This document shows positions 22,082 through 51,185 of a stretch of 64,000 bases of DNA, one piece after another. Position 1 is the first letter of the stretch, and each line of letters opens with the position of its first letter. The stretch is from Saccharopolyspora gloriosae. GTDB taxonomy: Bacteria > Actinomycetota > Actinomycetes > Mycobacteriales > Pseudonocardiaceae. The stretch spans positions 4,511,470-4,575,469 of the forward strand of contig NZ_CP059557.1 of the NCBI RefSeq assembly GCF_022828475.1, written 5' to 3'. The position numbers were made by a program, and so were the translations under genes. A model generated the notes under the pieces. It did not search any database, had not been told where the DNA came from, and saw only the letters and a list, made by a program, of their open reading frames with translations.

Positions 22082-22972
22082 TCAGGTCACAGCGCGCAGC
22101 GCGGGCCGGGCCGCGGCGATCTCCATGACGTACTGCCCGTACCCCGAGTTCGCCATCCGCTCTCCCAGGCGGTGGCACGCGTCCCGGTCGATGAAACCCA
22201 TCCGCAGCGCGATCTCCTCGAGGCAGGCGATCCGCACGCCCTGCCGGTGCTCCAGAACTCGCACGTACTGCCCGGCTTCGGTCAACGACTCGTGCGTTCC
22301 CGTGTCCAGCCACGCGAAGCCGCGCCCCAAATCGACCAGTTTCGCCGTGCCGCGCGCCAGATACGCGCGGTTGACGTCGGTGATCTCCAGTTCGCCGCGG
22401 GACGACGGCCGCAGGCCGGCGGCGATCTCGAGCACGTCGTTGTCGTAGAAGTACAGCCCCGTGATCGCCCGGTTCGATCTGGGACGGTTCGGCTTCTCCT
22501 CGATCGAGATCAGCTCGCCCCGCACGTTGACCTCTCCCACCCCGTAGCGCCGCGGATCCTGAACGGGGTAGCCGAACAGAACGCAACCGTGCAGGTCCTG
22601 CGCCGTGCGCTGAAGCAGCGCCGAGAAGCCCTGCCCGTGGAAGATGTTGTCGCCCAGCACCAACGCCACCGAGTCGTCCCCGACGTGGTCGGCACCGAGG
22701 ATGAACGCGTCCGCCAGCCCCTTCGGCTCGGCCTGCTCGACGTAGTCGAGGCTCAGGCCCAGTTCGGCTCCGTCACCCAGCAAACGCCGGAAGCCGGGCA
22801 AGTCCTCCGGTGTGGACACCACCAGGATCTCCCGAATGCCGGCGAGCATCAGCACCGACAGCGAGTAGTAGATCATCGGCTTGTCGTACACCGGAAGCAG
22901 CTGCTTGGAGACGCCGAGCGTCACGGGGTGCAGCCGGGTTCCGTGACCGCCCGCGAGCACGATGCCTTTCAT
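22082..22972 (-). CDS. rmlA: Glucose-1-phosphate thymidylyltransferase
   Basis: A 296-aa RmlA/RfbA enzyme making dTDP-glucose from glucose-1-phosphate and dTTP. The N-terminal signature GIVLAGGHGTRLHPVT, the active-site stretch LVLGDNIFHGQG and EEKPNRPRSNRAITGLYFYD are all present at usual length. Start ATG at 22972 with GAGGTGA upstream. It is the first step of the deoxysugar pathway and marks the left edge of the polyketide cluster. It is divergent from the SnoaL-like gene. Confidence 0.92.
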   Translation of the reverse strand: MKGIVLAGGHGTRLHPVTLGVSKQLLPVYDKPMIYYSLSVLMLAGIREILVVSTPEDLPGFRRLLGDGAELGLSLDYVEQAEPKGLADAFILGADHVGDDSVALVLGDNIFHGQGFSALLQRTAQDLHGCVLFGYPVQDPRRYGVGEVNVRGELISIEEKPNRPRSNRAITGLYFYDNDVLEIAAGLRPSSRGELEITDVNRAYLARGTAKLVDLGRGFAWLDTGTHESLTEAGQYVRVLEHRQGVRIACLEEIALRMGFIDRDACHRLGERMANSGYGQYVMEIAAARPALRAVT

Positions 22973-23179
22973 TCCGTCACCTCTGGAATGTCGCCGGATC
23001 AGACGGAGAACACCATCGCCCGCAATCGTCCATCCCCGCTCGAAGGCCGCTCCAGAGAAGTCCGGAACGGACGCGAGCACCGTTGCGGGACAGGACTTCG
23101 AGGGTGCTTCCAGCGCGGTTCGACTCCCCGTCGCGAGGATTCGGTCAGGTCAGTACCGCACTCGCCTCCGGAGGAGAGC

Positions 23180-23626
23180 ATGCCCGATCGATCGGTACCA
23201 CCCGAGCTGTACGCGGAAGTCCTGCACTTCTACGGCAAACAGATGCAAGCGCTCGACAATGGAGATTTCGAAGCCTACGCCGCGACCTTCACCCCGGACG
23301 GCGTTTTCGCGCACTCACCGGCGCTGCCTGCCGCTCGCACTCGGGCCGGCATCGTCGAAGCACTGCGCGAGTTCGACCTGCGCTTCGAGAACGACCCGGT
23401 GCAACGGCGGCACTGGTTCAACCACGTGGTGCTGGAACAGCAGGAGGACGGGTCGCTGCGGTCCACCGCTTACGCGCTGATCCTCACCATCCGCCCCGGC
23501 GTCAAAGCACCCGAGGTCGGCCCGAGCTGCGTGGTCAACGACGTGCTGGTCCGCGATGGGTCCGGGCTGCACCTGTGTTCCCGAGCCGTCGACCACGACC
23601 AGGAGTTCGCCCCGGTCTCGGCCTGA
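23180..23626 (+). CDS. SnoaL/NTF2-like protein
   Basis: A 148-aa alpha+beta-barrel protein of the NTF2-like superfamily, as judged from the helix-rich N-terminus (YAEVLHFYGKQMQALDNGDF) and the YAATFTPDGVFAHSPA strand pattern. Relatives in aromatic polyketide clusters act as ring cyclases (SnoaL), hydroxylase partners or epimerases; the exact role cannot be read here. Start ATG at 23180, behind GAGGAGAG. It is convergent with the ketoreductase gene across a strong hairpin. Confidence 0.72.
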   Translation: MPDRSVPPELYAEVLHFYGKQMQALDNGDFEAYAATFTPDGVFAHSPALPAARTRAGIVEALREFDLRFENDPVQRRHWFNHVVLEQQEDGSLRSTAYALILTIRPGVKAPEVGPSCVVNDVLVRDGSGLHLCSRAVDHDQEFAPVSA

Positions 23627-23661
23627 CGCGGCCGGTCATCGCCGTAGAACCGGCCGGGCAG

Positions 23662-23706
23662 CGGCACGTCCGGTGCGCGGAAACATCGCGCACCGGACGT
23701 GCCGCC
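23662..23706. terminator. Bidirectional terminator hairpin
   Basis: A 19-bp perfect stem (left arm 23662-23680, right arm 23688-23706; core CGGCACGTCCGGTGCGCG) with the 7-nt loop GAAACAT. It lies between the converging SnoaL-like and ketoreductase genes. Confidence 0.8.
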
Positions 23707-23722
23707 CATCGACCGGCGGAGA

Positions 23723-24508
23723 TCAGTAGTTGCCGAGCCCGCCGCACACGTTCAGCGCCTGCGCGGTCACGACCGCCGCCGCGTCGCTGACCAGGTACTC
23801 GACCATGGCCGCGACCTCCTCCGGCCGCACGTACCGGCCCACCGGCACGCGACCGGTGACCCGGTCGTGGGCCTCCTGCTCCGAGACGTCCCAGATCTTC
23901 GAGTAGTGCTCGCGGACCCGTTCCGCCATGGGGGTCTCGACGAATCCGGGGCACACCGCGTTGACGGTGATCCCGCTCTTGGCCAGTTCCAGGCCGAGCG
24001 ACTTGCTGAAACCGACGACGCCGTGCTTGGACGCGGAGTACGGGGAACCCCAGATCACGCCTTGCTTGCCCCCGGTGGAAGCCACGTTGACGATCCGCCC
24101 CCGTTCGAGACCGAGCATGCCGCCCTTGGTCAGCACCTCCTTGGTCACCAGGAACACGCTGTTCAGATTGGTGTTGATCACGTCGAGCCAGACGTCGTCG
24201 GGCACTTCGACGGTGACGCCTCCGCCGCTGCGTCCGGCGTTGTTCACCAGGATGTCGATCGGGCCGAACCGGTCCACCGCGGTCCGCACCAGGTCCGGAA
24301 TCTGCGCGGGGACGCTGACATCGCACGGGGAGCCGTCCACATCAAGACCCTCCGCGCGCAAGGTCTTGATCGTCGTGGTCAGCTCGTCGGCGTTCCTGGC
24401 GCAGAGGTGGACGCGCGCGCCGAGCCCTCCGAGCCGACGTGCGATCGCCAGGCCGATTCCGCTGGTCGCGCCGGTAACGAGGGCGACGGGCTTGGTGTCA
24501 GCGGCCAT
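23723..24508 (-). CDS. Polyketide C9 ketoreductase (ActIII type)
   Basis: A 261-aa SDR that matches the actinorhodin ketoreductase closely. The cofactor motif is TGATSGIGL (residues 12-20), and the catalytic Ser144, Tyr157 and Lys161 fall at the same numbers as in ActIII. The 94-96 lid motif is a short SGG variant, and the C-terminus ends VTAQALNVCGGLGNY. It reduces one carbonyl, normally C9, of the nascent poly-beta-ketone on the ACP, using NADPH. Start ATG at 24508, with GGAGGACTC upstream. It is transcribed away from the KS operon. Confidence 0.93.
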   Translation of the reverse strand: MAADTKPVALVTGATSGIGLAIARRLGGLGARVHLCARNADELTTTIKTLRAEGLDVDGSPCDVSVPAQIPDLVRTAVDRFGPIDILVNNAGRSGGGVTVEVPDDVWLDVINTNLNSVFLVTKEVLTKGGMLGLERGRIVNVASTGGKQGVIWGSPYSASKHGVVGFSKSLGLELAKSGITVNAVCPGFVETPMAERVREHYSKIWDVSEQEAHDRVTGRVPVGRYVRPEEVAAMVEYLVSDAAAVVTAQALNVCGGLGNY

Positions 24509-24644
24509 GAGTCCTCCATTCTCATCTGCGGTGAGTCGTCCCGGAGTCTCGCCAGGTCTCGTCGAGGCCGAATCGAACTCCCGTGGAGGCCGAGTGCGGT
24601 GACCGGCGCGAAACGCCCACGACCCGCGATCCGGCGGTATTACG

Positions 24645-25130
24645 GTGGTGGGCGTGGAACGACCTTCCTGGGACACCAAGGAACTCACGATCGGCCAGGT
24701 CGCGGCCCGCAGCGGAGTCGCCGTGTCCGCGCTGCACTTCTACGAGGCCAAGGGGCTGATCCAGAGCCGGCGCACCGCGGGCAACCAACGCCGCTACCGG
24801 CGCGATGTGGTTCGACGGGTCGCGTTCCTGCGCGTGGCGCAGCGGATCGGCATTCCGTTGAGCACCATCCGGGACGCACTGGCCACGCTGCCCGACGAAC
24901 GAACTCCCACCAAAGAGGACTGGGCGAAGCTCTCCGACTCGTGGCGTGAAGAGTTGGAAACGCGCATCACCGACCTCGTGCGGCTGCGCGACAACCTGGT
25001 CGACTGCATCGGCTGCGGCTGCCTGTCGATGTCCAGTTGCCTGCTGACCAACCCGTACGACGAGCTCGGCGAACAAGGCCCGGGGCCGCGCAAGTTGTTG
25101 CGCGACGAGGACGACGACCTGGAGCCGTAG
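24645..25130 (+). CDS. soxR: SoxR, redox-sensing [2Fe-2S] MerR-family regulator
   Basis: A 161-aa MerR-family activator. The N-terminal winged helix is [20 protein letters not shown], followed by a dimerisation helix and the SoxR-specific iron-sulfur motif [12 protein letters not shown] near residue 123. In actinomycetes SoxR responds to redox-active secondary metabolites rather than superoxide alone. The start may be the GTG at 24645 or 24654; no clear ribosome-binding site separates them. The gene lies just ahead of the KS operon, and three SoxR-box-like promoters lie elsewhere in the cluster (39740, 43939, 48079). It is therefore probably the cluster's product sensor. Confidence 0.92.
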
Positions 25131-25260: not shown

Positions 25261-26529
25261 GTGACGCGACGCGTCGTGATCACCGGGCTCGGGGTGCGCA
25301 CCCCGGGGGGAGCCGGTGCGGGAGAGTTCTGGGACCTGTTGATGTCGGGGCGAACCGCGACTCGGCGGATCAGCTTCTTCGATCCGTCGCCATACCGGTC
25401 GCAAGTGGCCGGAGAGTGCGATTTCGACCCGCTCCGGGAGGGGCTCTCGCCGCGCGAAGTGCGCCGGATGGACCGTGCCGCGCAGTTCGCCGTGGTGTGC
25501 GCGAGGGACGCCGCAGCCGATAGCGGGCTCGACTTCTCCCACGTGCCTTCCGAGCGGATCGGGGTCAGTCTCGGCAGTGCCGTCGCGGCGGCCACCAGCC
25601 TCGAGCAGGAGTACCTGGTGCTGTCCAACGGCGGTGAACGGTGGCTGGTCGATCACGAGTACCTGTCACCGCACATGTTCGACTACCTCTCGCCCGGCGC
25701 GATGCCCGCCGAGGTGGCCTGGACGGTGGGCGCCGAGGGGCCGGTCACGCTGGTCTCCGATGGGTGCACGTCCGGGCTGGACGCGCTCGGGCACGCATGC
25801 GACCTGATCGAAGAGGGCAGTGCCGACGTCGTTCTCGCGGGAGCCGCCGACACCCCGATCACGCCGATCGTGGTGTCCTGCTTCGACGCCATCAAGGCGA
25901 CCACGCCGCGCAACGACGAACCGGAGCACGCGTCCCGCCCGTTCGACGCCTCGCGCAACGGCTTTGTGCTCGCCGAAGGGGCCGCGCTGTTCGTCCTGGA
26001 GGAGTTCGAGCACGCCCGCGCACGCGGCGCGCGGATCTACGCGGAGATCAGCGGTTACGCGACTCGGCTCAACGCCTACCACATGACCGGGCTCAAATCC
26101 GACGGCCGGGAAATGGCCGAGGCGATTCGGGTTGCCATGCACCAGTCCCGGATCGACCCGGTCGACATCGACTACGTCAACGCGCACGGTTCCGGCACCA
26201 AGCAGAACGACCGGCATGAGACCGCGGCGTTCAAGCGCAGCCTCGGCGAACACGCCCGCAGCACTCCGATCAGCTCCATCAAATCGATGGTCGGCCATTC
26301 GCTCGGCGCGATCGGTTCCATCGAGATCGCGGCCTGCGCGCTGGCCATCGAGCGCGGCGGAATTCCACCGACGGCGAACCTCCGCGAACCCGACCCCGAA
26401 TGCGATCTCGACTACGTGCCGCTGACGGCCCGCGAGCAGCGGGTCGACACGGTGCTCAGCGTGGGCAGCGGATTCGGCGGGTTCCAAACCGCGATGGTGC
26501 TGCGCAAGCCGGAAGGAGCGGACGTATGA
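25261..26529 (+). CDS. Type II PKS ketosynthase alpha
   Basis: A 422-aa ketosynthase of a minimal aromatic PKS. The nucleophilic Cys is residue 169 (SDGCTSGLD), the position it has in ActI-ORF1. The catalytic histidines are in [14 protein letters not shown] and [13 protein letters not shown], with the lysine in IKSM. It condenses malonyl extender units on the ACP together with the CLF. GTG start at 25261 behind GGGAGGTG; the longer frame to 25162 is not needed. Its stop overlaps the CLF start by ATGA, giving coupled 1:1 synthesis. Confidence 0.96.
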
Positions 26530-27740
26530 GCGCCTGGATCACCGGGCTCGGCGTGGTCGCGCCGAACGGGCTCGGCGCCGCCGAGTACTGGGACGCGACG
26601 CTCCGGGGCGAGCACGGCATCAGCCGGATCGATCGCTTCGACCCCTCCGGATACCCGGCGGTGCTGGCCGGGCAGGTGTCCGGGTTCGATTCCGCGGCGC
26701 ACCTGCCGAAGCGGCTGCTGCCGCAGACCGACCTCTCGACCAGGTTCGCGCTGGCCGGTGCCCAGTGGGCGCTTGAGGACGCCGGTATGGACCCGGCGGC
26801 GGCCCCCGAGTTCGGCACGGGGGTCATCACCTCCAACGCCCTGGGCGGCTTCGAGTTCACCCACCGCGAGTTCCGCAAGTTGTGGTCGCAAGGACCGGAG
26901 TTCGTCAGCGTCTACGAGTCGTTCGCCTGGTTCTACGCCGTGAACACCGGCCAAATCTCCATCCGCCACGGCATGCGCGGACCGGGCCGCGTGCTGGTCG
27001 GCGAGCAGGCCGGCGGCCTCGACGCGCTGGGGCACGCCCGGCGAGCGCTGCGGACGGGAACCGCCGCGGTGGTCACCGGTGGTGTCGATTCCGCGCTGGA
27101 CCCGTGGGGCTGGGTGTCCCACCTCGCGGGCGGCCGGATCAGCACGGCCACGTCCCCGGACGAGGCGTACCGGCCCTTCGATCCCGCGGCGCGGGGGCAC
27201 GTTCCCGGTGAGGGCGGCGCGATCCTGATTCTGGAGGACGCCGTCGCGGCCGCGGACCGAGGAGCGACGAGCTACGGCGAGCTGGCCGGGTACGCGGCCA
27301 CCTTCGATCCGAAACCCGGATCGGACCGCCCGCCCGCGCTGCGGCGCGCGGTGGAACTCGCGCTGGCCGATGCGGGCGTCGGCCCGGACTCGGTGGACGT
27401 GGTGTTCGCCGACGCGGCCGGTGCTCCCCTGCTCGACGAGATCGAGGCGCAGGCCATCCGTTCCGTCTTCGGCCCGCGCGGTGTCCCGGTCACCGCCCCG
27501 AAATCGCTGACCGGCCGGTTGCACGCCGGCGGCGGGCCGCTCGACGTGGCGACCGCGCTGCTGGCCATCCGGGACGGCGTCGTTCCGCCCACCGGGCACA
27601 CCACCACGACCGATCCCGCTTACGAGCTCGACCTCGTGTTCGGGAGCCCCCGGCGAGCCGAGTTGCGCACCGCGCTCGTCCTCGCCCGGGGCAAGCACGG
27701 CTTCAACTCGGCGACCGTCGTGCGCGGGCCGCACGACTGA
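26526..27740 (+). CDS. Type II PKS chain-length factor (KS beta)
   Basis: A 404-aa partner of the ketosynthase in which the active-site Cys is replaced by Gln161 ([11 protein letters not shown]). That is the hallmark of chain-length factors, which set chain length and may decarboxylate malonyl-ACP to prime. The start overlaps the KS alpha stop by 4 bp. Gate residues that determine chain length cannot be judged without an alignment, so octa- versus decaketide is left open. Confidence 0.95.
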
Positions 27741-27781: not shown

Positions 27782-28036
27782 ATGAGTGGACCGACGATGG
27801 ACGACTTGCGCCGCATCCTGCGCGACTGCGCCGGCGACGCGGAGGCCGACTTGGCCGCCGACATCGGCGATACCCCGTTCGAGGAACTCGGCTACGACTC
27901 GCTCGCCCTGATCGAGACCGCGGCCCGCATCAAGCAGGAATGGGGCGTGACGATCCCCGACGAGCTGGTGGCTGAACTGCGCACTCCGCGTGAAGTGCTC
28001 GACGTCGTGCGTGACACCGCGGTCGGTTCCGCCTGA
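27782..28036 (+). CDS. Type II PKS acyl carrier protein
   Basis: An 84-aa acidic helical ACP with the phosphopantetheine attachment serine at residue 40 in ELGYDSLALIE. Start ATG at 27782 with an AGAGGAG site. It directly follows the CLF, giving the classical KS-CLF-ACP order. It carries the growing poly-beta-ketone. Confidence 0.94.
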   Translation: MSGPTMDDLRRILRDCAGDAEADLAADIGDTPFEELGYDSLALIETAARIKQEWGVTIPDELVAELRTPREVLDVVRDTAVGSA

Positions 28037-28104
28037 CACCGCCGTTCCTTCCCACTGAACCCCGGACCCGGCTCGGCGGATCGCCGAGCGATCGGAGAGC
28101 GTTG

Positions 28105-29067
28105 ATGAGCCGAACGGAACCGCATCGCACCGAACATCGCCTCGTGGTGGCCGCGCCCGCCGACCGCTTGTACGCACTGGTCGCGGGCGTGCAGCGCTGG
28201 CCCGCGGTGTTCGCGCCCAACCTGCACGTGCACCACCTCCACCGAACACCGCACCAGGAGCGGTTCCGGATCTGGGCGCTGCTCAACGGCACGGTCCGGA
28301 ACTGGACCTCGCGCCGCGAGCTCGATCCGCGCGGCCTCCGGGTCACCTTCGAGCAAGAGGTCAGCAGCCCGCCCATCGCGTCGATGGGCGGCGAGTGGTC
28401 GATGCGACAGCTGTCCGGCTCGCGCACGGAACTGCTCTTGCTGCACCACTTCACGGCCGTGGACGACGACCCGTCGACCATCGATTGGATCAACCGGGCC
28501 GTCGATGCCAACAGCAAGCGGGAACTCGAAGCGCTGCGCGATGTCGCAGAGCGCGGCGCGGACCTGAACGACGTGGTGTTCTCCTTCGAGGATTCGCTGC
28601 GGTGCGCGGGCCGCGCGGCCGACTGCTACGAGTTCGTGCACCGCGCCGACCTCTGGGACCACCGTCTCCCGCACGTGAGCCGGGTGCGGCTGGACGAGGA
28701 CGACGAAGGCGTGCAGCAGCTCGAAATGGACACCACCACCGAGGACGGTGGCACGCACACCACCCGCTCCTACCGGGTCTGTTCCGCACCCTCCTGGATC
28801 GGCTACAAGCAGACCGTGCTGCCCGCGCTGTTGACCGGGCACAGCGGTCTGTGGACGTTCAGCGAGGATGCCGGGACCACCACGATGACGGCTCGGCACA
28901 CCGTCGCGATCAAGACCGACGTGATCAGCGATGTCCTCGGGCCGGGCCGCAGCGTCGCCGACGCCCGCACCTTCCTGCGCTCCGCGTTGGGAGCCAACAG
29001 CCTCACCACCCTCACGCGGGCGGCCGAGTTCGCCGAGTCCCGCTCCGGAAAGCAGGCTTCGCGATGA
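28105..29067 (+). CDS. Didomain aromatase/cyclase
   Basis: A 320-aa protein made of two START/SRPBCC (Bet v1-like) domains: residues about 5-150 (HRLVVAAPADRLYALVAGVQ) and about 155-310 (FSFEDSLRCAGRAADCYEFV, PSWIGYKQTVLPAL). This is the ActVII/GrhE-type layout, which closes and aromatises the first ring of C9-reduced polyketides. That fits the ActIII-type reductase nearby. Start ATG at 28105, with GGAGAGC upstream; TTG at 28102 is less likely. Its stop overlaps the next start by 4 bp. Confidence 0.92.
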   Translation: MSRTEPHRTEHRLVVAAPADRLYALVAGVQRWPAVFAPNLHVHHLHRTPHQERFRIWALLNGTVRNWTSRRELDPRGLRVTFEQEVSSPPIASMGGEWSMRQLSGSRTELLLLHHFTAVDDDPSTIDWINRAVDANSKRELEALRDVAERGADLNDVVFSFEDSLRCAGRAADCYEFVHRADLWDHRLPHVSRVRLDEDDEGVQQLEMDTTTEDGGTHTTRSYRVCSAPSWIGYKQTVLPALLTGHSGLWTFSEDAGTTTMTARHTVAIKTDVISDVLGPGRSVADARTFLRSALGANSLTTLTRAAEFAESRSGKQASR

Positions 29068-29981
29068 GCGGGACCGCACCTGAGCCGAAGCTCGTAGAGC
29101 TCGCCGACGGGGTCTACGCGCACACCCAGCCGGACGGCGGGTGGTGCCTGAACAACGCCGGTCTGATCGCCGGCCGCGACGGGGTCGTGGTCGTGGACAC
29201 GGCCGCCACCGAACGCCGAGCGCTGCTGCTGCGGAAAGCCGTCGACGCGCTCGGCACCGGTGGCCACCACCTGGTGGTCAACACCCATCACCACGGTGAT
29301 CACGTGTTCGGCAACTACCTGTTCGCCCCCGCCGCCGCCGTCATCGCACACGAGCGTGCACGCGAGGAGATCGCCGAAACCGGGATGGGCCTGACCCTGT
29401 TGTGGCCGGAGGTGGAGTGGGGCGACATCCGCCTCGCGTTGCCGACGGTGACCTTCCAGGACCGGATGACGCTGCACGTCGACGACCGCATCGCCGAACT
29501 GCACCACGTCGGCCCGGCGCACACGACCAATGACGTCGTCGTGTGGCTGCCCGCGGAGCGCATCCTGTTCGCCGGCGACGTGCTGCTCAACGGGTGCACG
29601 CCGTTCAACTTGATGGGATCGATCGAGGGGAGCCTGCTCGCGCTGGAACGGCTGCGCGCGTTCGAGGCCCGGATCGTCGTCGGCGGTCACGGCGAGGTGT
29701 GCGGGCCGGAGGTGATCGACCGCACCGAGCGCTACCTGCGCCGGGTCCAGCAGCTGGCGGCGGCCGGATTCGCCGCGGGCCGCACGCCGCTGCAAGTCGC
29801 CCGCGACGCCGACCTCGGGGAGCACGCCGAACTGCTCGATCCCGAACGTCTGGTGGGCAATCTGCACCGGGCCTACGCGGAACTGGAGGGCGGCGAGCCG
29901 GGCAGGCCGCTCGACGTGGTGGCGATCTTCCAAGAAATGATCGACTTCAACGGCGGTGAGCTACCCACCTGCCTCGCCTGA
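29064..29981 (+). CDS. MBL-fold polyketide cyclase/thioesterase (ActIV-like)
   Basis: A 305-aa metallo-beta-lactamase-fold enzyme with the ligand motif NTHHHGDH near residue 75, then GPAHTTNDVV, FAGDVL and GGHGEV. In the actinorhodin-type pathways, ActIV uses this fold to cyclise the second ring and release the chain from the ACP. The position directly behind the aromatase, with a 4-bp overlap, supports the same task here. The gene ends 12 bp before the convergent dehydratase gene. Confidence 0.87.
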   Translation: MSGTAPEPKLVELADGVYAHTQPDGGWCLNNAGLIAGRDGVVVVDTAATERRALLLRKAVDALGTGGHHLVVNTHHHGDHVFGNYLFAPAAAVIAHERAREEIAETGMGLTLLWPEVEWGDIRLALPTVTFQDRMTLHVDDRIAELHHVGPAHTTNDVVVWLPAERILFAGDVLLNGCTPFNLMGSIEGSLLALERLRAFEARIVVGGHGEVCGPEVIDRTERYLRRVQQLAAAGFAAGRTPLQVARDADLGEHAELLDPERLVGNLHRAYAELEGGEPGRPLDVVAIFQEMIDFNGGELPTCLA

Positions 29982-42722: not shown

Positions 42723-43862
42723 TCACCCCCGCGTCGCCGCCAGCTCTTCCAGAACCCCGGTCACTTCGGCGGGAGTCGGCATCGCCGCGTTCTCCGCCGC
42801 CACCTCCTGCGCCCGGTCCCGGTAGGTGAGGTCGTTCACCACTTCGGTCGCCGCCTCGACGATCGCCTCCGCGGAATCCGCGCCGGGCTGGATCGTCTTC
42901 GCCGCGCCGAACGAGCTGAGCCTGTCGGCGTAGTCGACCACGTTCGGCAGGTACGGGATGAGCACCTGCGGCACGCCGTTGGCCATCGCCGTGAGCATCG
43001 TGTTCCCGCCCGCGTGGTGGACCAGCAGGTCGGTCGTGCGGACCACCACGTCCAGCGGAATCCAACCGGCGTGCACGTTCTCCGGCAGCGATCCGAGGTC
43101 GGTGGCGATGTCGTCCGGTGCGGCCACCAGCAGTTCGACGTCCAGCTTCGACACCTTGCGCACCAGCCCGTCCAGGACCTCGAAGTCGTACTCCTTGGTG
43201 ACCCGGCTGCCCGCGGTCACCAGTAGCCGCGGGCGCGTGCCGCGCCGGTACATCCACGGTTCGATGCGGCGTTGGCTGCTGACGGGGATGTAGCGCATCG
43301 GCTGGCAATCGGCCGCGTCGGCCCGCCGCAGGCTCGGCGGGCAGACGTCCACGAACAGGTCCGGCCGCGGCAGGTCGTCCAGCCCGAGCTCCGCGAGCTC
43401 CGGCCCCAGTTCCGCGGCCGCGGCGAGGTCGAGCACGCGCGGCTCGCCCATGTCGATGGCGTGCTTGACGTGCGGCACACCGAGCTTCGCCGCGATCAGC
43501 GGCGCGGAGTACGACAGCGCTCCGCCGACGACGACGTCGGGCCGCCAGTCCTCGGTGAGCTGGGTGAGCGCGGGGAGGCTGTGCGCCGCGAACCGGCCGA
43601 AGCCGCGACCGTTGAAGATCAGCCGCTCGTGCGGGTCCTTCGGCAGGGTCAACGGCGTGCCCAGCCGGTCGGCGAACATGAAGTCCATCATCGTCTTGTC
43701 GGTCGCCGCCACCGCCGGAAGACCGGTGCTGGTCACGGTCGGGACGGTGTTCTCAGGGGTGGCGACCAACACTTCGTGGCCGGCGTTTCGCACGGCGAGG
43801 GCCAGCGGAGTCACGGCGAAGATGACCCCGCCGCTGCCGCCTGCAACAAAGAGAACTCGCAT
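42723..43862 (-). CDS. Antibiotic glycosyltransferase (GT1, GT-B fold)
   Basis: A 379-aa glycosyltransferase with the N-terminal acceptor-domain motif MRVLFVAGGSGGVIFAVTPL and the C-terminal nucleotide-sugar motif VHHAGGNTMLTAMANGVPQV, where HHAGGNT is the GT1 signature. It probably attaches the deoxysugar made by the cluster to the aglycone. The N-terminus resembles the GTs of granaticin/medermycin-type clusters, some of which form C-glycosides, but O- versus C-linkage cannot be told from sequence. ATG start at 43862. It is divergent from the exporter gene. Confidence 0.9.
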   Translation of the reverse strand: MRVLFVAGGSGGVIFAVTPLALAVRNAGHEVLVATPENTVPTVTSTGLPAVAATDKTMMDFMFADRLGTPLTLPKDPHERLIFNGRGFGRFAAHSLPALTQLTEDWRPDVVVGGALSYSAPLIAAKLGVPHVKHAIDMGEPRVLDLAAAAELGPELAELGLDDLPRPDLFVDVCPPSLRRADAADCQPMRYIPVSSQRRIEPWMYRRGTRPRLLVTAGSRVTKEYDFEVLDGLVRKVSKLDVELLVAAPDDIATDLGSLPENVHAGWIPLDVVVRTTDLLVHHAGGNTMLTAMANGVPQVLIPYLPNVVDYADRLSSFGAAKTIQPGADSAEAIVEAATEVVNDLTYRDRAQEVAAENAAMPTPAEVTGVLEELAATRG

Positions 43863-43938: not shown

Positions 43939-43969
43939 TTGACCTCGACTTTGCTTGAGGTAGCAGACT
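43939..43969 (+). promoter_or_regulatory. SoxR-box promoter of the MFS exporter
   Basis: TTGACC (43939-43944) followed by a 19-bp spacer and CAGACT (43964-43969). The palindrome CCTCGACTTTGCTTGAGG (43943-43960) matches 5 of 6 positions in the outer arms of the E. coli SoxR box. It lies in the 226-bp divergent region between the glycosyltransferase and MFS genes and points towards MFS. It shares the TTGACCTC(A/G)ACT start with the other two boxes. Confidence 0.66.
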
Positions 43970-44088: not shown

Positions 44089-45726
44089 ATGACCGACACG
44101 ATCCGCCCCGTGGCCGGCGAACGGCCACCACTGCCGAGCCGGGCCGCACTGATCTCCATCCTCGTCGGCTTGATGCTCGGCATGTTCCTCGGCGCGCTGG
44201 ACACCATGATCATGGCCTCGGCGCTGCGCACCGTCGCCGACCAGCTGCACGGACTCACGTTGCAGGCGTGGGTGACGACGGCCTACCTGGTCACCATGAC
44301 CGTCTCGGCACCGCTGTACGGCAAGCTCTCCGACATATACGGCCGCAAGCCGCTGTACCTCACCGCGATCCTGCTGTTCCTGGCCGGTTCGCTGCTGTGC
44401 GGGATGGCGCAATCGATCTACCAGCTGGCCGCGGCACGAGCGGTGCAGGGACTCGGGGCGGGTGGGCTCACCTCACTGGCCCTGGCCGTGGTCGCCGACA
44501 TCTCTCCGGCCGAGAAGCGATCGCGCTACCAGGCGAACCTCGGGGCGGTCTTCGCGCTGGCGAGCGTCGCCGGGCCGGTGCTGGGCGGGTTGTTCGCCGG
44601 TGCCGACCAGATCCTGGGCATCGCGGGCTGGCGCTGGATCTTCCTGATCAACCTGCCGATCGGCCTGGTGGCGTGCGTGCTGGTCGCCCTGCTGCTGCGG
44701 GTGCCGAACGAGCGGGTGGCCCACCGGGTGGACTTCGGCGGTGCGATCACGCTCGTGCTGTGCGTGTTCCCGCTGCTCGTGGTCGCCGAGAACGGGCGGG
44801 AATGGGGCTGGGGCTCGCCGTTGTCACTGTTGTCGTTCGCCGCGGGCGGGGTCGGACTGGCCCTGTTCCTGACCGTGCAACGACGCGTGGGCGATGGCGC
44901 GTTGCTACCCGGCAGGCTGTTTCGGAACCTGTCCTTCTCGTTGGTGAACGCGGTCAATTTCCTGGGCGGCATCGGCGTTTTCGCCGGCCTGGCCTTGCTG
45001 CCGCTGTACCTGCAGATCGTGCAAGGGCTCAGCCCCACCGCGGCCGGCCTGTTACTGCTGCCGCAGTCGCTGGCCACCACACTCGGTGCCCGCAATTCGA
45101 GCGCGCTGACCGAACGGTTCGGTTATCAGCCGGTGCTGGCCGCGGGCATGGCGCTGATGACCGTGGTGTTCGCGCTGCTCGGGCAGGTCGGGTTGCAGAC
45201 TCCGCTGTGGGTCCTCGGGGTGCTCGTCACCTGCCTCGGCTACGGGATGGGGTTGTTCTTCCAGGTGATCCTGGTGGCGATCCAGAGCAGCGTGCCCCAG
45301 TCCGACCTCGGGCTCGCCAGCGGCCTGTACAGCTTCTCCCGCCAGATCGGCGGTGTCGCCGGGACGGCGGTGTTCGTGTCCCTGCTGTTCGGGATCGCGA
45401 GTTCCCGGGCGGGCGAGGACTTCCGCGCCGCGGCGGCCGAACCTCCGCTGCGCTCGGCGCTGGGCGACCCCGGCACGCTCGCGGACCCCGCCAACGCGCA
45501 CCTGCTCGACCAGCTCCAGAACCGGGGAACGGTGGACTTCGACGACACCTCGTTCCTCACCCACGTCGACGACCGGCTGGCCCAGCCCGTCCTGGAGACC
45601 TTCGCCTCGTCGCTGAACGTGGTGTTTCTCGTCGTCGCCGGATTCCTCGCGCTGTCAGTGCTGATCACGCTGGCGTTGCAGGGCCGGAGCATGCCAGCGG
45701 AAACGGAATCGGAGGAGCGCGAATGA
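44089..45726 (+). CDS. MFS drug exporter, DHA2 (14-TM) family
   Basis: A 545-aa transporter with the DHA2 hallmarks. TM1 is followed by LDTMIMASALRTVADQLHG (motif D1), then GKLSDIYGRKPLY (motif A) and GLGAGGLTSLALAVVAD. Its length fits 14 helices with a larger extracytoplasmic loop before the last helix (about residues 445-510). It is a proton-driven exporter, most likely for the polyketide product, giving self-resistance. It is coupled to the DsbA gene by a 4-bp overlap and preceded by a SoxR-box promoter. Confidence 0.9.
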   Translation: MTDTIRPVAGERPPLPSRAALISILVGLMLGMFLGALDTMIMASALRTVADQLHGLTLQAWVTTAYLVTMTVSAPLYGKLSDIYGRKPLYLTAILLFLAGSLLCGMAQSIYQLAAARAVQGLGAGGLTSLALAVVADISPAEKRSRYQANLGAVFALASVAGPVLGGLFAGADQILGIAGWRWIFLINLPIGLVACVLVALLLRVPNERVAHRVDFGGAITLVLCVFPLLVVAENGREWGWGSPLSLLSFAAGGVGLALFLTVQRRVGDGALLPGRLFRNLSFSLVNAVNFLGGIGVFAGLALLPLYLQIVQGLSPTAAGLLLLPQSLATTLGARNSSALTERFGYQPVLAAGMALMTVVFALLGQVGLQTPLWVLGVLVTCLGYGMGLFFQVILVAIQSSVPQSDLGLASGLYSFSRQIGGVAGTAVFVSLLFGIASSRAGEDFRAAAAEPPLRSALGDPGTLADPANAHLLDQLQNRGTVDFDDTSFLTHVDDRLAQPVLETFASSLNVVFLVVAGFLALSVLITLALQGRSMPAETESEERE

Positions 45727-46436: not shown

Positions 46437-47096
46437 TCACGACCGGTTCGCGTTCGAGACCGCCGTTCCCAGCAGCTCGGCCACCTCCGCCGCAGGCGCC
46501 AAGCCTGATATCGGCCGGCCGCCGTCCAGCACGATCGAGGGGATCGCGGTCACGCCCGACTCCGCCGACCGGCGGTAATCGGCCCGCACTTGCTCAGCGC
46601 GCTCCGTACCGGTGAGCAGCCGGGTCACCTCGTCTTCCGCGAGACCCGCTTCGACACCGAGTTCCGCGAGCACCGTCGTCGAGGAGATCACCCGATGCTC
46701 GCTGAAGTGCGCTCGGAACAGCAGTCGCCACAGCTCTGCCGCGCACCCTCGGTCCGCGGCCAGCGCGAGCAAGCGGTGGGCGTCGAAGCTGGACACCTGT
46801 CGGGTACCGGCGAGGTCGATCACCAACCCGTGCTCGGAGCCCGTGGACTCGATCAGAGCTATCCGGGCGGGTACCTGCTCAGCGGGCAGGTACCCGGCCA
46901 TCGCCTCGGGCACGGTCGGCCCGGGCGTCTTAGGGGCGTCCGGGATCAAGGCATGACAACGCCACACCGGCTCCAACCGGTCTCGTACCGGTTCCGCCAC
47001 CATTCCCAGCGCCAGCTCCACGCGGTGCAGACCGATGTAGCACCACGGGCACAGGACATCGCCGAAGATCTCGACCTTCACCGCGTCCCGCATCAT
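46437..47096 (-). CDS. DsbA/FrnE-family oxidoreductase (second copy)
   Basis: A 219-aa homologue of the preceding gene, with GDVLCPWCYIGLHRVEL at the N-terminus and GVTAIPSIVLDG at the cis-proline. The two copies differ widely in the helical insert, so they are not a recent duplication. Start ATGATG at 47096/47093, overlapping the stop of the FMN split-barrel gene. It therefore lies in the SoxR-box-driven operon. Confidence 0.86.
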   Translation of the reverse strand: MMRDAVKVEIFGDVLCPWCYIGLHRVELALGMVAEPVRDRLEPVWRCHALIPDAPKTPGPTVPEAMAGYLPAEQVPARIALIESTGSEHGLVIDLAGTRQVSSFDAHRLLALAADRGCAAELWRLLFRAHFSEHRVISSTTVLAELGVEAGLAEDEVTRLLTGTERAEQVRADYRRSAESGVTAIPSIVLDGGRPISGLAPAAEVAELLGTAVSNANRS

Positions 47097-48019
47097 GAGG
47101 GTGCCAGCGCGGTCAGCGCCGACCAGTCGATGCGGGGAGCCGCGAGGCCGCGCCGCTGCAGGTACTGCTCGGTCCGAGCACGGCCATCGTCGATCCATTC
47201 CTCGAACGAGCCCGCTCCGTGCCCGGAGGCGAGCGCGCCGGGGATGCGCTCCGGGGTGAACCGCCACTCCCGTCCCGAGCCGTACGCGGTGCCGGCGACG
47301 TGCAACGAGAGCATCTCCCCGGAACGGCCGTCGTGCCGGTGCCACAACAGGTTCGCCGGGCCGACCTTGCCCGCGAAGTCCTCCGAGGTGCGCACCACCA
47401 GCTCGCCGTCCACATCCGACTCCGAGACCCGCGCGCGAACCGCGTAGGGGTGGCCGGTCGTGTCCCTGGCGGCGAACACCGCCGTGGGGTAGCGGCTCAG
47501 CGCGTCCTTGACCTGGACGGCGAGCGGTTCCTCCTCCGGGGGGTACGGCTCGAAGGTGCCTCCCGCCTCCGGTGCCTCCAACGCGTGCACCCGCTCCGGG
47601 GTGACGAAGAACGGCAACCGCAGGTAGTACCAGTCCATCGTCCCCTGCGCCTCCGCCTCGGCGACCTCGTCGGCGAGTGTCGGAGATTTGCGCAGAAGTT
47701 CCGCCCAGTAGTCCTTGATGTCCTGCGGCGGCGCGATCACGTTCGGCGCGCTCGCCGTCCCTTGCACGAGAACGTTCGGCTTTCCGCTCAGACCGCTTCC
47801 CGTCGGGTCGGAGAAGAGCAACGCCACCCGGCCGTCCCGGCGAATGTTGAACGCCTTCTGCGGATACGACAACGGGGTGGTGATGATGATCTGCTGCGTC
47901 TCGGGTACCCAGGCGCCCGCCATGGGCCGGACGTTGAGTCCGCCGTCGCGCGCGATCGTGCTCAGCTCCAGAACTCGCACCTCGGCGAGAACGGCGGACA
48001 GCTCGTCATCGATTCGCAT
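47093..48019 (-). CDS. Pyridoxamine-5'-phosphate-oxidase-like FMN/F420 split-barrel protein
   Basis: A 308-aa protein with two split-barrel halves. The first (about residues 1-125) reads LSTIARDGGLNVRPMAGAWV, then QKAFNIRRDGRVALLFSDPT. The second (about 165-290) has YPTAVFAARDTTGHPYAVRA. Such folds bind FMN or F420 and act on quinone-like or small redox substrates. Start ATG at 48019, with a SoxR-box promoter about 60 bp upstream. It is the first gene of a two-gene operon with the DsbA-like protein. Detoxification or tailoring of the product are both possible. Confidence 0.8.
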   Translation of the reverse strand: MRIDDELSAVLAEVRVLELSTIARDGGLNVRPMAGAWVPETQQIIITTPLSYPQKAFNIRRDGRVALLFSDPTGSGLSGKPNVLVQGTASAPNVIAPPQDIKDYWAELLRKSPTLADEVAEAEAQGTMDWYYLRLPFFVTPERVHALEAPEAGGTFEPYPPEEEPLAVQVKDALSRYPTAVFAARDTTGHPYAVRARVSESDVDGELVVRTSEDFAGKVGPANLLWHRHDGRSGEMLSLHVAGTAYGSGREWRFTPERIPGALASGHGAGSFEEWIDDGRARTEQYLQRRGLAAPRIDWSALTALAPS

Positions 48020-48078: not shown

Positions 48079-48109
48079 ACGCTACAACCTGAACCAAAGT
48101 TGAGGTCAA
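48079..48109 (-). promoter_or_regulatory. SoxR-box promoter of the FMN-protein/DsbA operon
   Basis: On the minus strand, TTGACC (48109-48104) and TAGCGT (48084-48079) stand 19 bp apart around the palindrome-like CCTGAACCAAAGTTGAGG (48088-48105, plus-strand view). It matches the SoxR box with one arm mismatch. TTGACCTCAACT is shared exactly with the 39740 site. Confidence 0.68.
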
Positions 48110-48144
48110 TCGAACGCACGGTTCCCCGGGGCGATCCGCATCGG

Positions 48145-49371
48145 TCAGCGTCCGCGCGCCGATCGCTGCACCGCGGCGCGGACCACCTCCGATGCCGAGG
48201 GCAGCAGGTCGATCCGCCGCAGGTAGTCCGCGCGTCCGGCCGCCAGGCCGGCCCTGGCGTCAGGGTCGTGCAGCATCCGTGTGAGACCCGTCAGCACGGC
48301 GTCCTCGTCGAAGATGTCGGCCACCGATCCCGCGGGCAGAAAGGGATTCTCCGTCAGCGTCGGCCGCGTGATCGCATTCCAGCGCCACGGCCACAGAGTG
48401 AACGGGGGAACCTCGCCGGGGAACCGATCCAGCCACTCCCCTGTGATCGGCCCCGGCCTCGCACCGGGGCCGTGGGATCCGGTGGTGAGGAATCCGGGAA
48501 CATCGGCGAGCACGGCCATTTCCAAGACGGCGGCCGGGAAATACGACGACCACACCCCGTCCGCCGCTCGAACCCATTCACCGAGCTCGCTCGCGGTGTG
48601 CTCCGGCCGAATGCGAGTGCGTTCGGCAGGTAGCGCTCGATAGGCGTCGAATTCCGGACCGGGCAGCAAGAAATGCGTGTTCTCCGGCAACGCGCGGAGA
48701 TACGACACGACCAGTTCCGGCACTCGCGCCGCGAGCTCGCGGGTGGCCCCGCCGGCCCGGCTGATCATGTCGTACTGCGGCTGGAGCGTCGGTACGACGA
48801 GCAGCCTGTCGTCCGGGCCGAGCGAGAGCTCCTCCCGGACCCGTTGCCGCCGCTGGGTGCTCGGCCCCGGAGACACGGTGCTCCGGTAGGCGAAGCAGTT
48901 CGCGTCCGCGCTGTCCGGGCGAGCGGCCGGGACGGGCCGAAGCCGGGCGGGCATGTCCAAGATTCGGTCCGAGATCCGCTCGCTCCGGCCCATGATCTCG
49001 ACTTCGAGGCTGTCCGCGCTCAGTTCGTAGAGGTCCATCGGGATCACCGGCACGCCCAGCTCCTCGATGCACCACGGGTCCAGGCCGTAGCTGAAGGTGA
49101 AGGTCAACCAGTGCACCACGTAGTCGCTGAGCACCAACGCGTCCGGCCGCAGTTCGGAGACCAGGCGGCCCAGCACCGCGCGCACGTCTTCGCGGGAGTC
49201 CGGTGCGACGAGCGTGTACGGAAATCCCGCGGCCTTCAGCTGGTGCGAGTTGAACGGGTGCACCGCGAAGTGGCTGTCGATGCCCGCGCCGCGCACCTGC
49301 GTGGCCAGGTCCACCCCCATCGCCACCTCGTGATGTTCGTTCACGGCAGTGGCCAGGAACAGCAGTCGCAT
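48145..49371 (-). CDS. Glycosyltransferase-like protein (DUF6365-like)
   Basis: A 408-aa protein that looks GT-B-like. The N-terminus MRLLFLATAVNEHHEVAMGV leads into a Rossmann half containing LRPDALVLSDYVVHWLTFTF. The C-terminal half has VLADVPGFLTTGSHGPGARP in place of a standard nucleotide-sugar loop. From memory it resembles proteins annotated DUF6365 beside sugar aminotransferases. It might be an unusual glycosyltransferase or auxiliary protein. Start ATG at 49371, 8 bp after the aminotransferase stop, so the two form an operon. The function is uncertain. Confidence 0.7.
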   Translation of the reverse strand: MRLLFLATAVNEHHEVAMGVDLATQVRGAGIDSHFAVHPFNSHQLKAAGFPYTLVAPDSREDVRAVLGRLVSELRPDALVLSDYVVHWLTFTFSYGLDPWCIEELGVPVIPMDLYELSADSLEVEIMGRSERISDRILDMPARLRPVPAARPDSADANCFAYRSTVSPGPSTQRRQRVREELSLGPDDRLLVVPTLQPQYDMISRAGGATRELAARVPELVVSYLRALPENTHFLLPGPEFDAYRALPAERTRIRPEHTASELGEWVRAADGVWSSYFPAAVLEMAVLADVPGFLTTGSHGPGARPGPITGEWLDRFPGEVPPFTLWPWRWNAITRPTLTENPFLPAGSVADIFDEDAVLTGLTRMLHDPDARAGLAAGRADYLRRIDLLPSASEVVRAAVQRSARGR

Positions 49372-49379
49372 GGCGGCGT

Positions 49380-50531
49380 TCACCGCCGCTGCCGCGCGCG
49401 CGACCGGTTCGCGATGGCCTTGCGCACTTGTTCGGCGACCTGGTCGACCTGGGCATCGGTGAGCCCTTGGTGCAGCGGCAGGCACAGCGTCTCGTCGGAG
49501 GCGCGATCCGCCTCAGGCAACGACTCGGCGGCCCCGTAGGCGGGCACCTTGTGCAGCGGCGGATAGCGGAACGTCGTGTAGATCCCCGCGGCGTACAGGT
49601 CAGCGGCGACCTGGTCGCGGATTTCGGCGTCCATCTGGACCCAGTAGAAGTAGTAGGAGGAGCTGTGCCCGGCGGGCAGCGGCGGCGGTGGCCTCAGTCC
49701 GTCCACATCGGTCAGCGCCGCGTCGTACCGCCGGACGATTTCGCTGCGGCGCCGGACGAACTCGGGCAGCCTGCCGAGTTGCACGCTCCCGATGGCGGCG
49801 GTCAAGTCGTTGCCGATCACCCGCCGGGCGAAGTCGCGGACGTCGAGGTCCCACCAGCGGTGGGAGACCCTGGCCTTGGCGAACCCGCTGGACTGCTCCA
49901 AGCCGTGGTAGGCCAGCCGTCGCGCCCGCCTCGCCGCTTCCGGTTCACGCACGTAGAGCATGCCACCGTCACCGGTGCTGAGGATCTTCATCGCGTCGAA
50001 GCTCCACATCGCCATATCGCCGAATGTGCCGACGAGTCGGTCCCGCACTGTCGACGCGATCGCGCAGGCCGCATCCTCGATCAGCGCGACGCCGCGGGCA
50101 CGGCACAGTTCCGCCACCGCCTCGACCTCTCCGGGATATCCGCCGTAGTGCAGCAGCACCACCGCTTTGGTCCGCTCGGTCAACGCGGCCTCGACGTCGG
50201 CGACGCCGGGGTTCAGCCCGCGCGCGTCCACGTCGCAGAAGACCGTCCGGGCACCGGTCGCGGCGACGGCGTTCGCGGCCGCGACGAAGCTGATCGACGG
50301 CAGCACCACCTCGTCGCCCTCTCCCAGCTCCAGCAGTTCGGTGGCGATGAACAGAGCCGCGGTGCAGGAGTTCAGGAACACGACGTGCGCCGGATCGACG
50401 CCGAGGTGCTCGGCGAATTCGGTTTCGAAGGCGGCGGTGCGCGGTCCGTGGCCCAGCCATCCGCTGTCGAACACGTCCGAGACCGCCGCCAACTCGGCGG
50501 CGCCGAGCGTGGGCTGGAAGATGTTGATCAT
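49380..50531 (-). CDS. Sugar aminotransferase (DegT/DnrJ/EryC1/StrS family)
   Basis: A 383-aa PLP enzyme. The PLP lysine lies in WSFDAMKILSTGDGG, the phosphate-binding region in FLNSCTAALFIA, and EDAACAIAS provides the Asp that holds the pyridine nitrogen. Unlike the 3,4-dehydratase at 34126 it keeps the lysine, so it is a true transaminase. It probably aminates the 4-keto group of the trideoxy sugar. Start ATG at 50531. It is in an operon with the DUF6365-like gene and 45 bp downstream of the epimerase gene. Confidence 0.9.
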   Translation of the reverse strand: MINIFQPTLGAAELAAVSDVFDSGWLGHGPRTAAFETEFAEHLGVDPAHVVFLNSCTAALFIATELLELGEGDEVVLPSISFVAAANAVAATGARTVFCDVDARGLNPGVADVEAALTERTKAVVLLHYGGYPGEVEAVAELCRARGVALIEDAACAIASTVRDRLVGTFGDMAMWSFDAMKILSTGDGGMLYVREPEAARRARRLAYHGLEQSSGFAKARVSHRWWDLDVRDFARRVIGNDLTAAIGSVQLGRLPEFVRRRSEIVRRYDAALTDVDGLRPPPPLPAGHSSSYYFYWVQMDAEIRDQVAADLYAAGIYTTFRYPPLHKVPAYGAAESLPEADRASDETLCLPLHQGLTDAQVDQVAEQVRKAIANRSRARQRR

Positions 50532-50576
50532 AGTGCGCCTCCCTGGCTGAGGTGGGCGAAGGACCTGCCGCCCGGG

Positions 50577-51185
50577 TTAGCGAGCGGGCGTGGTCTCGGC
50601 TTGCGGGTCGGTGTGCTCGTCCGCCCACCGCGGCAGGATTCCCGCTGCTCGCGCCGCGAGCAGCGTCGGCGCCGCGGCGTCTTTGGCGGACATCAGCGGA
50701 GGCCCGGACAGCTCCCACGGCAGGGCGAGCTCGGGGTCGAGCGGGTCCACCTCGAACTGCGTTCCCGGCACGTGGGCGGACGAGAGCACGTAGCAGATGC
50801 AGCTGTCGTCGCGCAGCGCGAGGAATCCGTGCCCGAACCCCTCCGGCACGTGGATCGCGGTCCCCTCCGTCGCGTCGAGAATGGTCGAGACGTGCTGACC
50901 GAAGGTGGGCGAATCCACCCGCAGGTCGACGACCACGTCCTGAAGCACGCCGCGCGCGCAGGTGACGTACTTGGCTTGACCCGGCGGAATCAGCACGCCG
51001 TGCAAGCCGCGCAAGGTGTTCCGCTTGGAGACCGAATAGTTGATCTGTGCGACCCGGAACTCCGCACCGGTGCTTTCGGCGAGCAGGTCGGCGCGGAAAC
51101 CTTCGTAGAAGCATCCGCGCTCGTCCGACAGCCGGTCGGGCCGAATCCGGAACACTCCGGGCAGTGCGACTTCCTGAATCTCCAC
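50577..51185 (-). CDS. dTDP-4-keto-6-deoxyhexose 3,5-epimerase
   Basis: A 202-aa cupin (RmlC/EvaD family). The catalytic His lies in RNTLRGLHGV, QAKYVTCARGVLQDVVVDLR gives the family core strand, and the tyrosine region is CICYVLSS. GTG start at 51185, with GGAGG 5 nt upstream; the longer frame to 51320 is read-through. It inverts C5 (and/or C3), implying an L-configured or 3-epi sugar. It is the first gene of the leftward sugar operon and probably the right end of the cluster. Confidence 0.9.
   Translation of the reverse strand: MEIQEVALPGVFRIRPDRLSDERGCFYEGFRADLLAESTGAEFRVAQINYSVSKRNTLRGLHGVLIPPGQAKYVTCARGVLQDVVVDLRVDSPTFGQHVSTILDATEGTAIHVPEGFGHGFLALRDDSCICYVLSSAHVPGTQFEVDPLDPELALPWELSGPPLMSAKDAAAPTLLAARAAGILPRWADEHTDPQAETTPAR

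Follow-up and report, generated by a model that had tools for sequence, protein, structure and literature searches.

Introduction

Auricin and 3′-O-forosaminyl-griseusin A are characterised pyranonaphthoquinones that carry a 4-amino-2,3,4,6-tetradeoxy sugar (PMC10409956, PMC6784081, PMC8588249). Here we describe a type II polyketide gene cluster with aminosugar genes in Saccharopolyspora gloriosae, which lies in a 64,000-nucleotide stretch (C1:4511470-4575469, hereafter the window) of a 6.88-Mb single-contig genome. The 16S gene of this genome is 96.4% identical to that of Saccharopolyspora rosea and 90.5-93.8% to those of six other genera (8 of the 15 genomes searched yielded a 16S), as befits a host that is probably a Saccharopolyspora-like member of the Pseudonocardiaceae. 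The cluster extends from window position 22082 to 51188; an alpha/beta hydrolase gene just outside it (51490-52272) is a doubtful member. We think it fairly probable that the locus makes a glycosylated benzoisochromanequinone, that is, a pyranonaphthoquinone, with the aminosugar set, the glycosyltransferase (GT) and the SoxR circuit that are proposed below. The parts are of known kinds, and their combination was matched to no characterised product among the sources that we compared.

Results

Gene content

Gene calls were checked by codon-position GC and by Pfam and NCBIfam profile searches. An earlier reading of the window by a model, hereafter the original prediction, had listed a KS-alpha, a chain length factor (CLF), an acyl carrier protein (ACP), an ActIII-type ketoreductase (KR), an aromatase/cyclase, a metallo-β-lactamase (MBL)-fold cyclase and seven sugar genes, together with a GT, a methyltransferase (MT), a two-component oxygenase, F420/FMN redox enzymes, a SARP, a SoxR and an exporter. 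Every one of these parts was recovered by profile search in its predicted place, and the gene families bear out the claim of a type II aromatic polyketide with a trideoxy/aminosugar pathway. Genes that had been missed, or that were masked by overlapping open reading frames (ORFs), encode an MDR enzyme, an NTF2-like protein, a DsbA/FrnE-like protein, a DUF6365 protein and a protein of 211 amino acids (aa). In what follows, coordinates are window positions unless a locus is named, and the sign after them gives the strand.

The polyketide core is of the octaketide type

The minimal polyketide synthase comprises KS-alpha (25261-26529, +; profile search and alignment), the CLF, or KS-beta (26526-27740, +; 575 bits to 1tqy_B), and the ACP (27782-28036, +; PP-binding, 1.5e-11). 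As predicted, the KS-alpha cysteine is residue 169 when counted from the GTG at 25261, and the CLF glutamine is residue 161 from the ATG at 26526. The CLF shares 267 of 399 residues (67%) with ActCLF and has the same three cavity residues, F/T/F, which in the published act numbering are F109, T112 and F116. As a control we used the sole CLF in the first 50 kb of the auricin plasmid, pSA3239, whose cavity reads F/G/L. We take this protein for Aur2B: aur2 reportedly has no ACP gene, and none is annotated next to this CLF. Aur2AB function in the making of a decaketide (PMC10409956).

Relatives were collected by a contig scan with the CLF, and the best 80 of 560 confirmed relatives were taken as loci for comparison. 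F/T/F together with the glutamine occurs in 54 of 94 aligned CLF stretches, a count in which duplicates and two KS-alpha stretches are included. We also ran the CLF part of the phylogeny that the original prediction had suggested. In the resulting 93-row tree, the window CLF groups with that of Saccharopolyspora rosea A22 (support 99/89), and the two fall inside a 66-row clade that holds ActCLF (100/99), apart from a 27-row clade that holds the pSA3239 CLF. On the cavity residues and the tree, we reject a decaketide, griseusin-type reading of the core.

The octaketide-type KS-CLF is accompanied in the cluster by an ActIII-type C9 KR (23723-24508, -; adh_short, 2.6e-62), an ActVII-like aromatase/cyclase (28102-29067, +; Polyketide_cyc, 4.1e-14), of which Pfam detects the first domain only, and an ActIV-like MBL-fold cyclase (29064-29981, +; Lactamase_B, 3.6e-23). 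KS-alpha, CLF and ACP would build a C16 octaketide, which the KR, the aromatase/cyclase and the MBL cyclase are expected to turn into a bicyclic intermediate.

A predicted 4-aminosugar pathway and its transferases

The gene set for a dTDP-4-amino-2,3,4,6-tetradeoxyhexose is complete by homology. It consists of RmlA, a glucose-1-phosphate thymidylyltransferase (22082-22972, -; TIGR01207, 433 bits against a cut-off of 360.65); RmlB, a dTDP-glucose 4,6-dehydratase (29994-30980, -; profile search); an NDP-hexose 2,3-dehydratase (31179-32522, +; Hexose_dehydrat, 3.1e-164); a Gfo/Idh NDP-hexose 3-ketoreductase (33085-34095, +; GFO_IDH_MocA, 1.2e-24); an NDP-4-keto-6-deoxyhexose 3-dehydrase (34126-35424, +); and a DegT-type dTDP-4-ketohexose 4-aminotransferase (49380-50531, -). 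The 3-dehydrase gene had been called a 3,4-dehydratase. The gene is indeed present, but its product is a C-3 dehydrase of the RfbH/E1/SpnQ type, scoring 644.8 bits with NF011936, above the equivalog cut-off of 423, and lying nearest to the E1 structures 3bcx (483 bits) and 3bb8 (479 bits). The aminotransferase matches the TlmJ structure (5uid) with 529 bits, whereas the second-best structure scores 173; TlmJ has a role in the pathway of a 4-amino-L-sugar. The seventh gene encodes an RmlC-type 3,5-(or 5-)epimerase (50577-51188, -; dTDP_sugar_isom, 1.5e-50), the start of which is not fixed, its ORF being open to 51320. By family, the seven dTDP-sugar genes fit a 4-amino-2,3,4,6-tetradeoxyhexose of the forosamine/ossamine type. 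Since RmlC is present, the sugar is probably of the L series. RmlA, RmlB, the 2,3-dehydratase, the 3-ketoreductase, the 3-dehydrase, RmlC and the TlmJ-like aminotransferase would together make the activated aminosugar.

An S-adenosylmethionine-dependent MT (39943-40749, +) was recognised by profile and structure search as MitM/RebM-like, MitM and RebM-like proteins being its best matches among those listed. A homologue adjoins the GT in Streptomyces termitum (64%) and in Isolate_45 (58%). The enzyme is probably a sugar MT, and would methylate the aminosugar on N or O. The GT (42723-43862, -) was assigned to the UrdGT2/LanGT2 clade by structure search and clade placement. It scores 388.0 bits with the chimera LanGT2S8Ac, 12 above LanGT2 (375.7), and 364.6 with UrdGT2. 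In the switch segment, 13 of 27 residues are as in UrdGT2 and 8 of 27 as in LanGT2, which is an O-GT. A C-glycoside therefore appears to be the more likely linkage.

The DUF6365 protein (48145-49371, -; PF19892, 8.9e-100) is 45-46% identical in three sister clusters and is named in none of the papers listed by a literature search. A sequence search against the PDB gave nothing below E 0.39, and a sequence relationship to the cluster GTs is unsupported (hhalign probability 1.1%). Its AlphaFold model, built from a two-row alignment, is poor (pLDDT 45). The 50 Foldseek rows listed for that model are GT-B glycosyltransferases by title, at TM scores of only ~0.2-0.3, which is a hint only. In auricin, the transfer of forosamine reportedly involves two glycosyltransferases (PMC8588249), so that a second GT-like protein is less unexpected here. 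In our proposal, DUF6365 is possibly a divergent GT-B partner of the cluster GT, which would attach the aminosugar, perhaps with its help. We regard DUF6365 as a definite candidate for a new part of the aminosugar-transfer machinery.

An in-cluster SoxR and three matching promoters

The soxR gene (24645-25130, +) sits between the KR and KS-alpha genes. It encodes a redox-sensing MerR-family regulator with MerR and MerR-DNA-bind domains and the iron-sulphur motif CX2CXCX5C; a paralog with 59% identity lies elsewhere in the genome, at C1:1616648. A search of the window with the plain SoxR palindrome, which is of the E. coli type, gave four matches, three of which lie in short intergenic stretches and have a common extended form, TTGACCTCRACTNNNNTTSAG. 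Exact copies of this element precede an MDR gene (element at 39750-39770, -), the gene of a DHA2/OtrB-like MFS exporter (44089-45726, +; MFS_1, 1.8e-51; element at 43939-43959, +) and a PPOX-FrnE gene pair (element at 48089-48109, -). In the whole genome the element has three exact matches, all in the cluster, and two more at 2 mismatches; its reversed control has one match per strand. None of 100 shuffles of the window reached three matches, even when 3 mismatches were allowed.

The element was also found outside this genome. Across 91 comparison loci, some of which overlap and which total 1.83 Mb, six matches at up to 2 mismatches represent five distinct sites, all of them in S. termitum or Streptomyces sp. 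NBC_00158 and all 50-79 nt ahead of a gene for an MDR, MFS, DsbA or NADP-dependent oxidoreductase protein. These sister-cluster promoters are at positions 14684, 18997 and 5277 of locus L137, 14982 of L101 and 4525 of L103. When eight promoters were aligned, the element was 50-130 nt from the target gene, and the -35 hexamer read TTGACC in seven and TTGACG in one. All eight have, 19 nt after the -35, a hexamer with A in second and T in sixth place, and at spacers of 15-18 or 20-22 nt none of them does. In the family, 80 of 200 genomes carry the element at 1 mismatch, some with up to seven such sites, against two control matches among the matches listed. In contrast, none of the five same-genus genomes has it at that threshold. 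The TTGACCTCRACTNNNNTTSAG form is therefore a real regulatory element that is common in the family.

In Streptomyces coelicolor, actinorhodin is required for the SoxR regulon, whose members include an ABC transporter, a quinone oxidoreductase and further redox enzymes (PMC4146615); the target classes proposed here agree with it. In our model, the redox-active product would be sensed by the in-cluster SoxR. Acting at three dedicated promoters, SoxR would induce the quinone oxidoreductase, the MFS exporter and the PPOX-FrnE pair, while the SARP activator (35536-36411, -; BTAD, 1.3e-42) would drive biosynthesis. The predicted circuit is probably one of product-sensed export and quinone handling.

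Pyran-quinone tailoring

The NTF2/SnoaL-like protein (23180-23626, +; SnoaL_4, 2.3e-14) is of the ActVI-ORFA/Med-ORF10 type. It keeps Y33, H45, R76 and H78 at the ActVI-ORFA numbers, with an arginine at 135 instead of 136. All four residues have been discussed for ActVI-ORFA, in which expression studies bore out that R76 and H78 are important (PMC11315284). We regard the protein as a likely flux-directing factor rather than a cyclase, one that would keep the bicyclic intermediate on track.

A short-chain dehydrogenase/reductase (SDR; 36902-37636, +; profile search) is our candidate for the enzyme that reduces C3, instead of one of the ActVI-ORF1 type. The S. termitum cluster has two 3HCDH-family proteins, whereas the window has the SDR instead, and sequence comparison gave no match in the window to either of the two. 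The two families give opposite C3 centres: ActVI-ORF1, of the 3-hydroxyacyl-CoA dehydrogenase (3HAD) family, leads to 3S, and Gra-ORF6, of the SDR family, to 3R (PMC4498746). Because the window has an SDR and no 3HAD match, we predict, from its family, that the SDR may reduce C3 and set the granaticin-type 3R centre. The data on mutual exclusion of the two families were too few to be of use: of the 80 named loci, five have the SDR alone, three the 3HAD alone, none both, and 72 neither.

The pyran-quinone would be completed by an LLM enzyme, the MDR enzyme and the oxygenase/flavin reductase pair. An LLM-class (F420/FMN) oxidoreductase (37656-38693, +; Bac_luciferase, 4.9e-74) is followed by the MDR quinone oxidoreductase/enoyl reductase (38758-39666, -; ADH_zinc_N_2 and ADH_N), one of the proposed SoxR targets. 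A two-component flavin-dependent oxygenase (40746-41837, +; Acyl-CoA_dh_2, 2.1e-19) matches the structures of 3-HSA hydroxylase and p-hydroxyphenylacetate hydroxylase, and is presumably of the ActVA-ORF5-like class; its partner would be an ActVB-like flavin reductase (32555-33088, +; Flavin_Reduct, 7.9e-36). The second proposed SoxR target besides the exporter is a PPOX-type (PNPOx/F420) oxidoreductase (47093-48019, -; PNPOx_N, 1.3e-6), which scores 42.4 bits with TIGR03618, under the cut-off of 79.05. Its gene overlaps by 4 nt that of a DsbA/FrnE-like oxidoreductase (46437-47096, -; DSBA, 1e-21). Finally, the 211-aa protein (41957-42592, -) is apparently secreted, with a signal-like N-terminus, and matches no Pfam or NCBIfam profile. 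It is conserved in sister clusters (62% in S. rosea, 58% in NBC_00158 and 45% in S. termitum), and we presume that it is perhaps a counterpart of ActVI-ORF3.

Related clusters in other genomes

The best core match among those listed is the uncharacterised cluster of S. rosea A22 (KS-alpha 83%, CLF 74%, KR 82%, MBL cyclase 77%, LLM enzyme 75%, aromatase/cyclase 59%). That cluster also has RmlA (77%), RmlB (70%), the 2,3-dehydratase and the 3-ketoreductase, which amount to a 2-deoxysugar set, and it carries a MycE-type MT. In the 60 kb examined there is no 3-dehydrase, aminotransferase, RmlC, window-type MT, DUF6365 protein, PPOX enzyme, SoxR or operator. The core also occurs in two further genomes, with no homologues of the sugar genes in the 60 kb of G105 and the 40 kb of G045 that were examined. 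Of five other genomes of the host's genus, three gave a CLF match, at 56-60% identity, and the remaining two gave no match that reached the threshold.

The uncharacterised clusters of Streptomyces termitum JCM 4518 and of a plasmid of Streptomyces sp. NBC_00158 combine a pyranonaphthoquinone-type core with, respectively, the aminosugar set and most of it; the NBC_00158 region compared has neither RmlC nor a window-type MT. Identities to the window proteins (S. termitum/NBC_00158) are 76/70% for the 3-dehydrase, 69/66% for the aminotransferase, 59/61% for the GT and 45/46% for DUF6365, and across S. termitum and the plasmid clusters the aminotransferase is 65-69% identical. Isolate_45 has pieces of the aminosugar cassette on two contigs, and G087 has parts on two contigs. 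Because the core recurs without the cassette, and most of the cassette recurs in S. termitum and NBC_00158, it looks as if the aminosugar genes form a plug-in cassette and the core is the widespread part.

Several observations on these and neighbouring loci deserve mention in their own right. L137 (NBC_00158 plasmid, 56611-97753) and L107 (Isolate_45) have several KS-CLF pairs in one cluster, with differing cavity residues (F/T/F, A/G/L and Y/G/L), which is unusual for a type II system; one pair lies close to the aminotransferase gene. In L139 (S. exfoliatus plasmid, 84691-125815) an aminosugar run (aminotransferase 68%, RmlC 62%, RfbH 73%) adjoins P450 and SARP genes, and no type II polyketide synthase is annotated in the stretch. 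The S. termitum locus (L101:17645-19453) encodes a 602-aa fusion of a 3-hydroxyacyl-CoA dehydrogenase part with one that resembles Rv2466c, a mycothiol-dependent protein of the DsbA fold. This fusion hints that C3 reduction there may be coupled to a thiol-redox step. Within the window, beyond the cluster, a gene for a 1289-aa RHS-repeat protein is followed by WXG100-like, EspC-like and YbaB-like genes (56480-62044), a region that resembles an ordinary type VII-secretion-linked polymorphic system.

Discussion

The original prediction held that the cluster matches none that could be named and that its product may be undescribed. The first statement stands in so far as no characterised cluster with the same gene set was found in the genome collections and literature searched (MIBiG/antiSMASH and BGC 1.31 were not covered there), nor was the cluster described in that literature. 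The second has become less exceptional, given that 4-amino-tetradeoxy pyranonaphthoquinones are known and that uncharacterised clusters hold most of the cassette. Several aminosugar benzoisochromanequinones were isolated without their clusters, and it is conceivable, if on the whole unlikely, that the locus makes one that has already been described, of the medermycin/menoxymycin/Sch 38519 or forosaminyl-griseusin kind, with a cluster outside the sources compared. Pyranonaphthoquinones with D-forosamine have, after all, been described (PMC8588249, PMC6784081). Against this, the auricin-plasmid CLF is of another type, by its residues and in the tree, and the described sugars are D-forosamine, whereas the window has RmlC. 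The sugar of medermycin is angolosamine, a 3-aminosugar, and the window aminotransferase is TlmJ-like. Still less probable, in our judgement, is that the quinone is dimeric or further elaborated, or that the core makes an anthraquinone shunt-type aglycone to which the aminosugar is attached. When the C3 ketoreductase is missing, the intermediate of the act pathway ends up as DMAC and aloesaponarin II (PMC4498746), and neither the LLM enzyme nor the secreted 211-aa protein has an assigned role, which leaves room for such a product. However, the C3 reductase candidate, the MDR enzyme, the ActVI-ORFA-like protein with its Y33, H45, R76 and H78, and the two-component oxygenase fit a pyranoquinone route. 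MBL-AB01, a xanthone of Actinoalloteichus (PMC12838262), was considered and set aside.

A glycosylated benzoisochromanequinone with its own SoxR circuit thus remains our preferred reading, and the following observations weigh against parts of it. As regards the sugar, the RmlC-type epimerase scores 134 bits, under the RmlC equivalog cut-off of 155.75, and the NBC_00158 region lacks RmlC and the window-type MT, so that the L configuration is open to doubt. An N,N-dimethyltransferase of the DesVI/SpnS type was not recognised, neither name occurring among the MT matches listed (60 of 98). The argument for C- over O-linkage is thin, the whole-GT score being lower with UrdGT2, the C-GT, than with LanGT2. 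As regards regulation, the four window matches to the plain palindrome (at up to 3 mismatches) are not significant, 12 of 100 shuffles reaching four; with up to 2 mismatches allowed, the palindrome occurs at nine distinct places in the genome, two of them in the cluster, against 29 for the reversed control. The TTGACCTCRACTNNNNTTSAG consensus was itself derived from the three window sites. The S. rosea and Isolate_45 clusters lack the operator, and the S. termitum and NBC_00158 clusters carry it with no SoxR in the regions compared. None of 96 comparison loci (duplicates included; flanks of up to 10 kb for the 80 CLF loci) yielded a SoxR. The absence of SoxR from the S. termitum and NBC_00158 regions, the 59% paralog and the frequency of the element in the family, which means that another MerR-family protein could bind it, give some substance to the idea that such a protein, for instance the paralog, occupies the three operators and that the cluster SoxR regulates something else. 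We nevertheless consider this improbable, since in its own genome the exact element is confined to the cluster, and its absence at 1 mismatch from all five same-genus genomes is as expected if it was acquired with the cluster and its SoxR.

In its most detailed form, our proposal would be an undescribed 3R benzoisochromanequinone C-glycoside with a methylated L-4-amino-2,3,4,6-tetradeoxyhexose, with DUF6365 as the GT-B partner and a private SoxR whose whole regulon lies in the cluster. That all of these details hold at once is doubtful. The broader picture is of a modular pathway, in which one conserved octaketide quinone core is combined with an exchangeable deoxysugar cassette. It also offers a compact, testable case of a redox-active antibiotic that is apparently sensed by a dedicated SoxR controlling its own export. 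If this is true, product, sensor and self-protection travel as one unit. The eight aligned promoters offer a sequence marker by which genomes can be screened for redox-active products.

Comparison with known systems

Auricin (aur1/aur2, on plasmid pSA3239) and forosaminyl-griseusin A (BGC 1.31) share with the product proposed here both its kind and the 4-amino-tetradeoxy sugar, and an aminotransferase of pSA3239 is 65% identical to that of the window. Auricin differs in that the CLF taken to be Aur2B is F/G/L, whereas the window CLF is F/T/F and octaketide-type. The sugar of auricin and forosaminyl-griseusin is D-forosamine, whereas the window has an RmlC epimerase. For forosamine, an oxonium ion at m/z 142.1239 is reported (PMC8588249). 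The gene content of pSA3239 at 1-50 kb and 191-241 kb (of 241 kb, with the aur1 core outside these parts) also differs from that of the window. The likeness to actinorhodin and to granaticin/medermycin lies in the octaketide CLF, the C9 KR, the aromatase/cyclase, the MBL cyclase, the NTF2-like ActVI-ORFA protein and the two-component oxygenase class. Unlike the actinorhodin cluster, the window has an SDR for the 3-hydroxyacyl-CoA dehydrogenase, as reported for granaticin, and unlike actinorhodin and granaticin/medermycin alike, it adds a 4-aminosugar set and a soxR gene that lies in the cluster beside KS-alpha.

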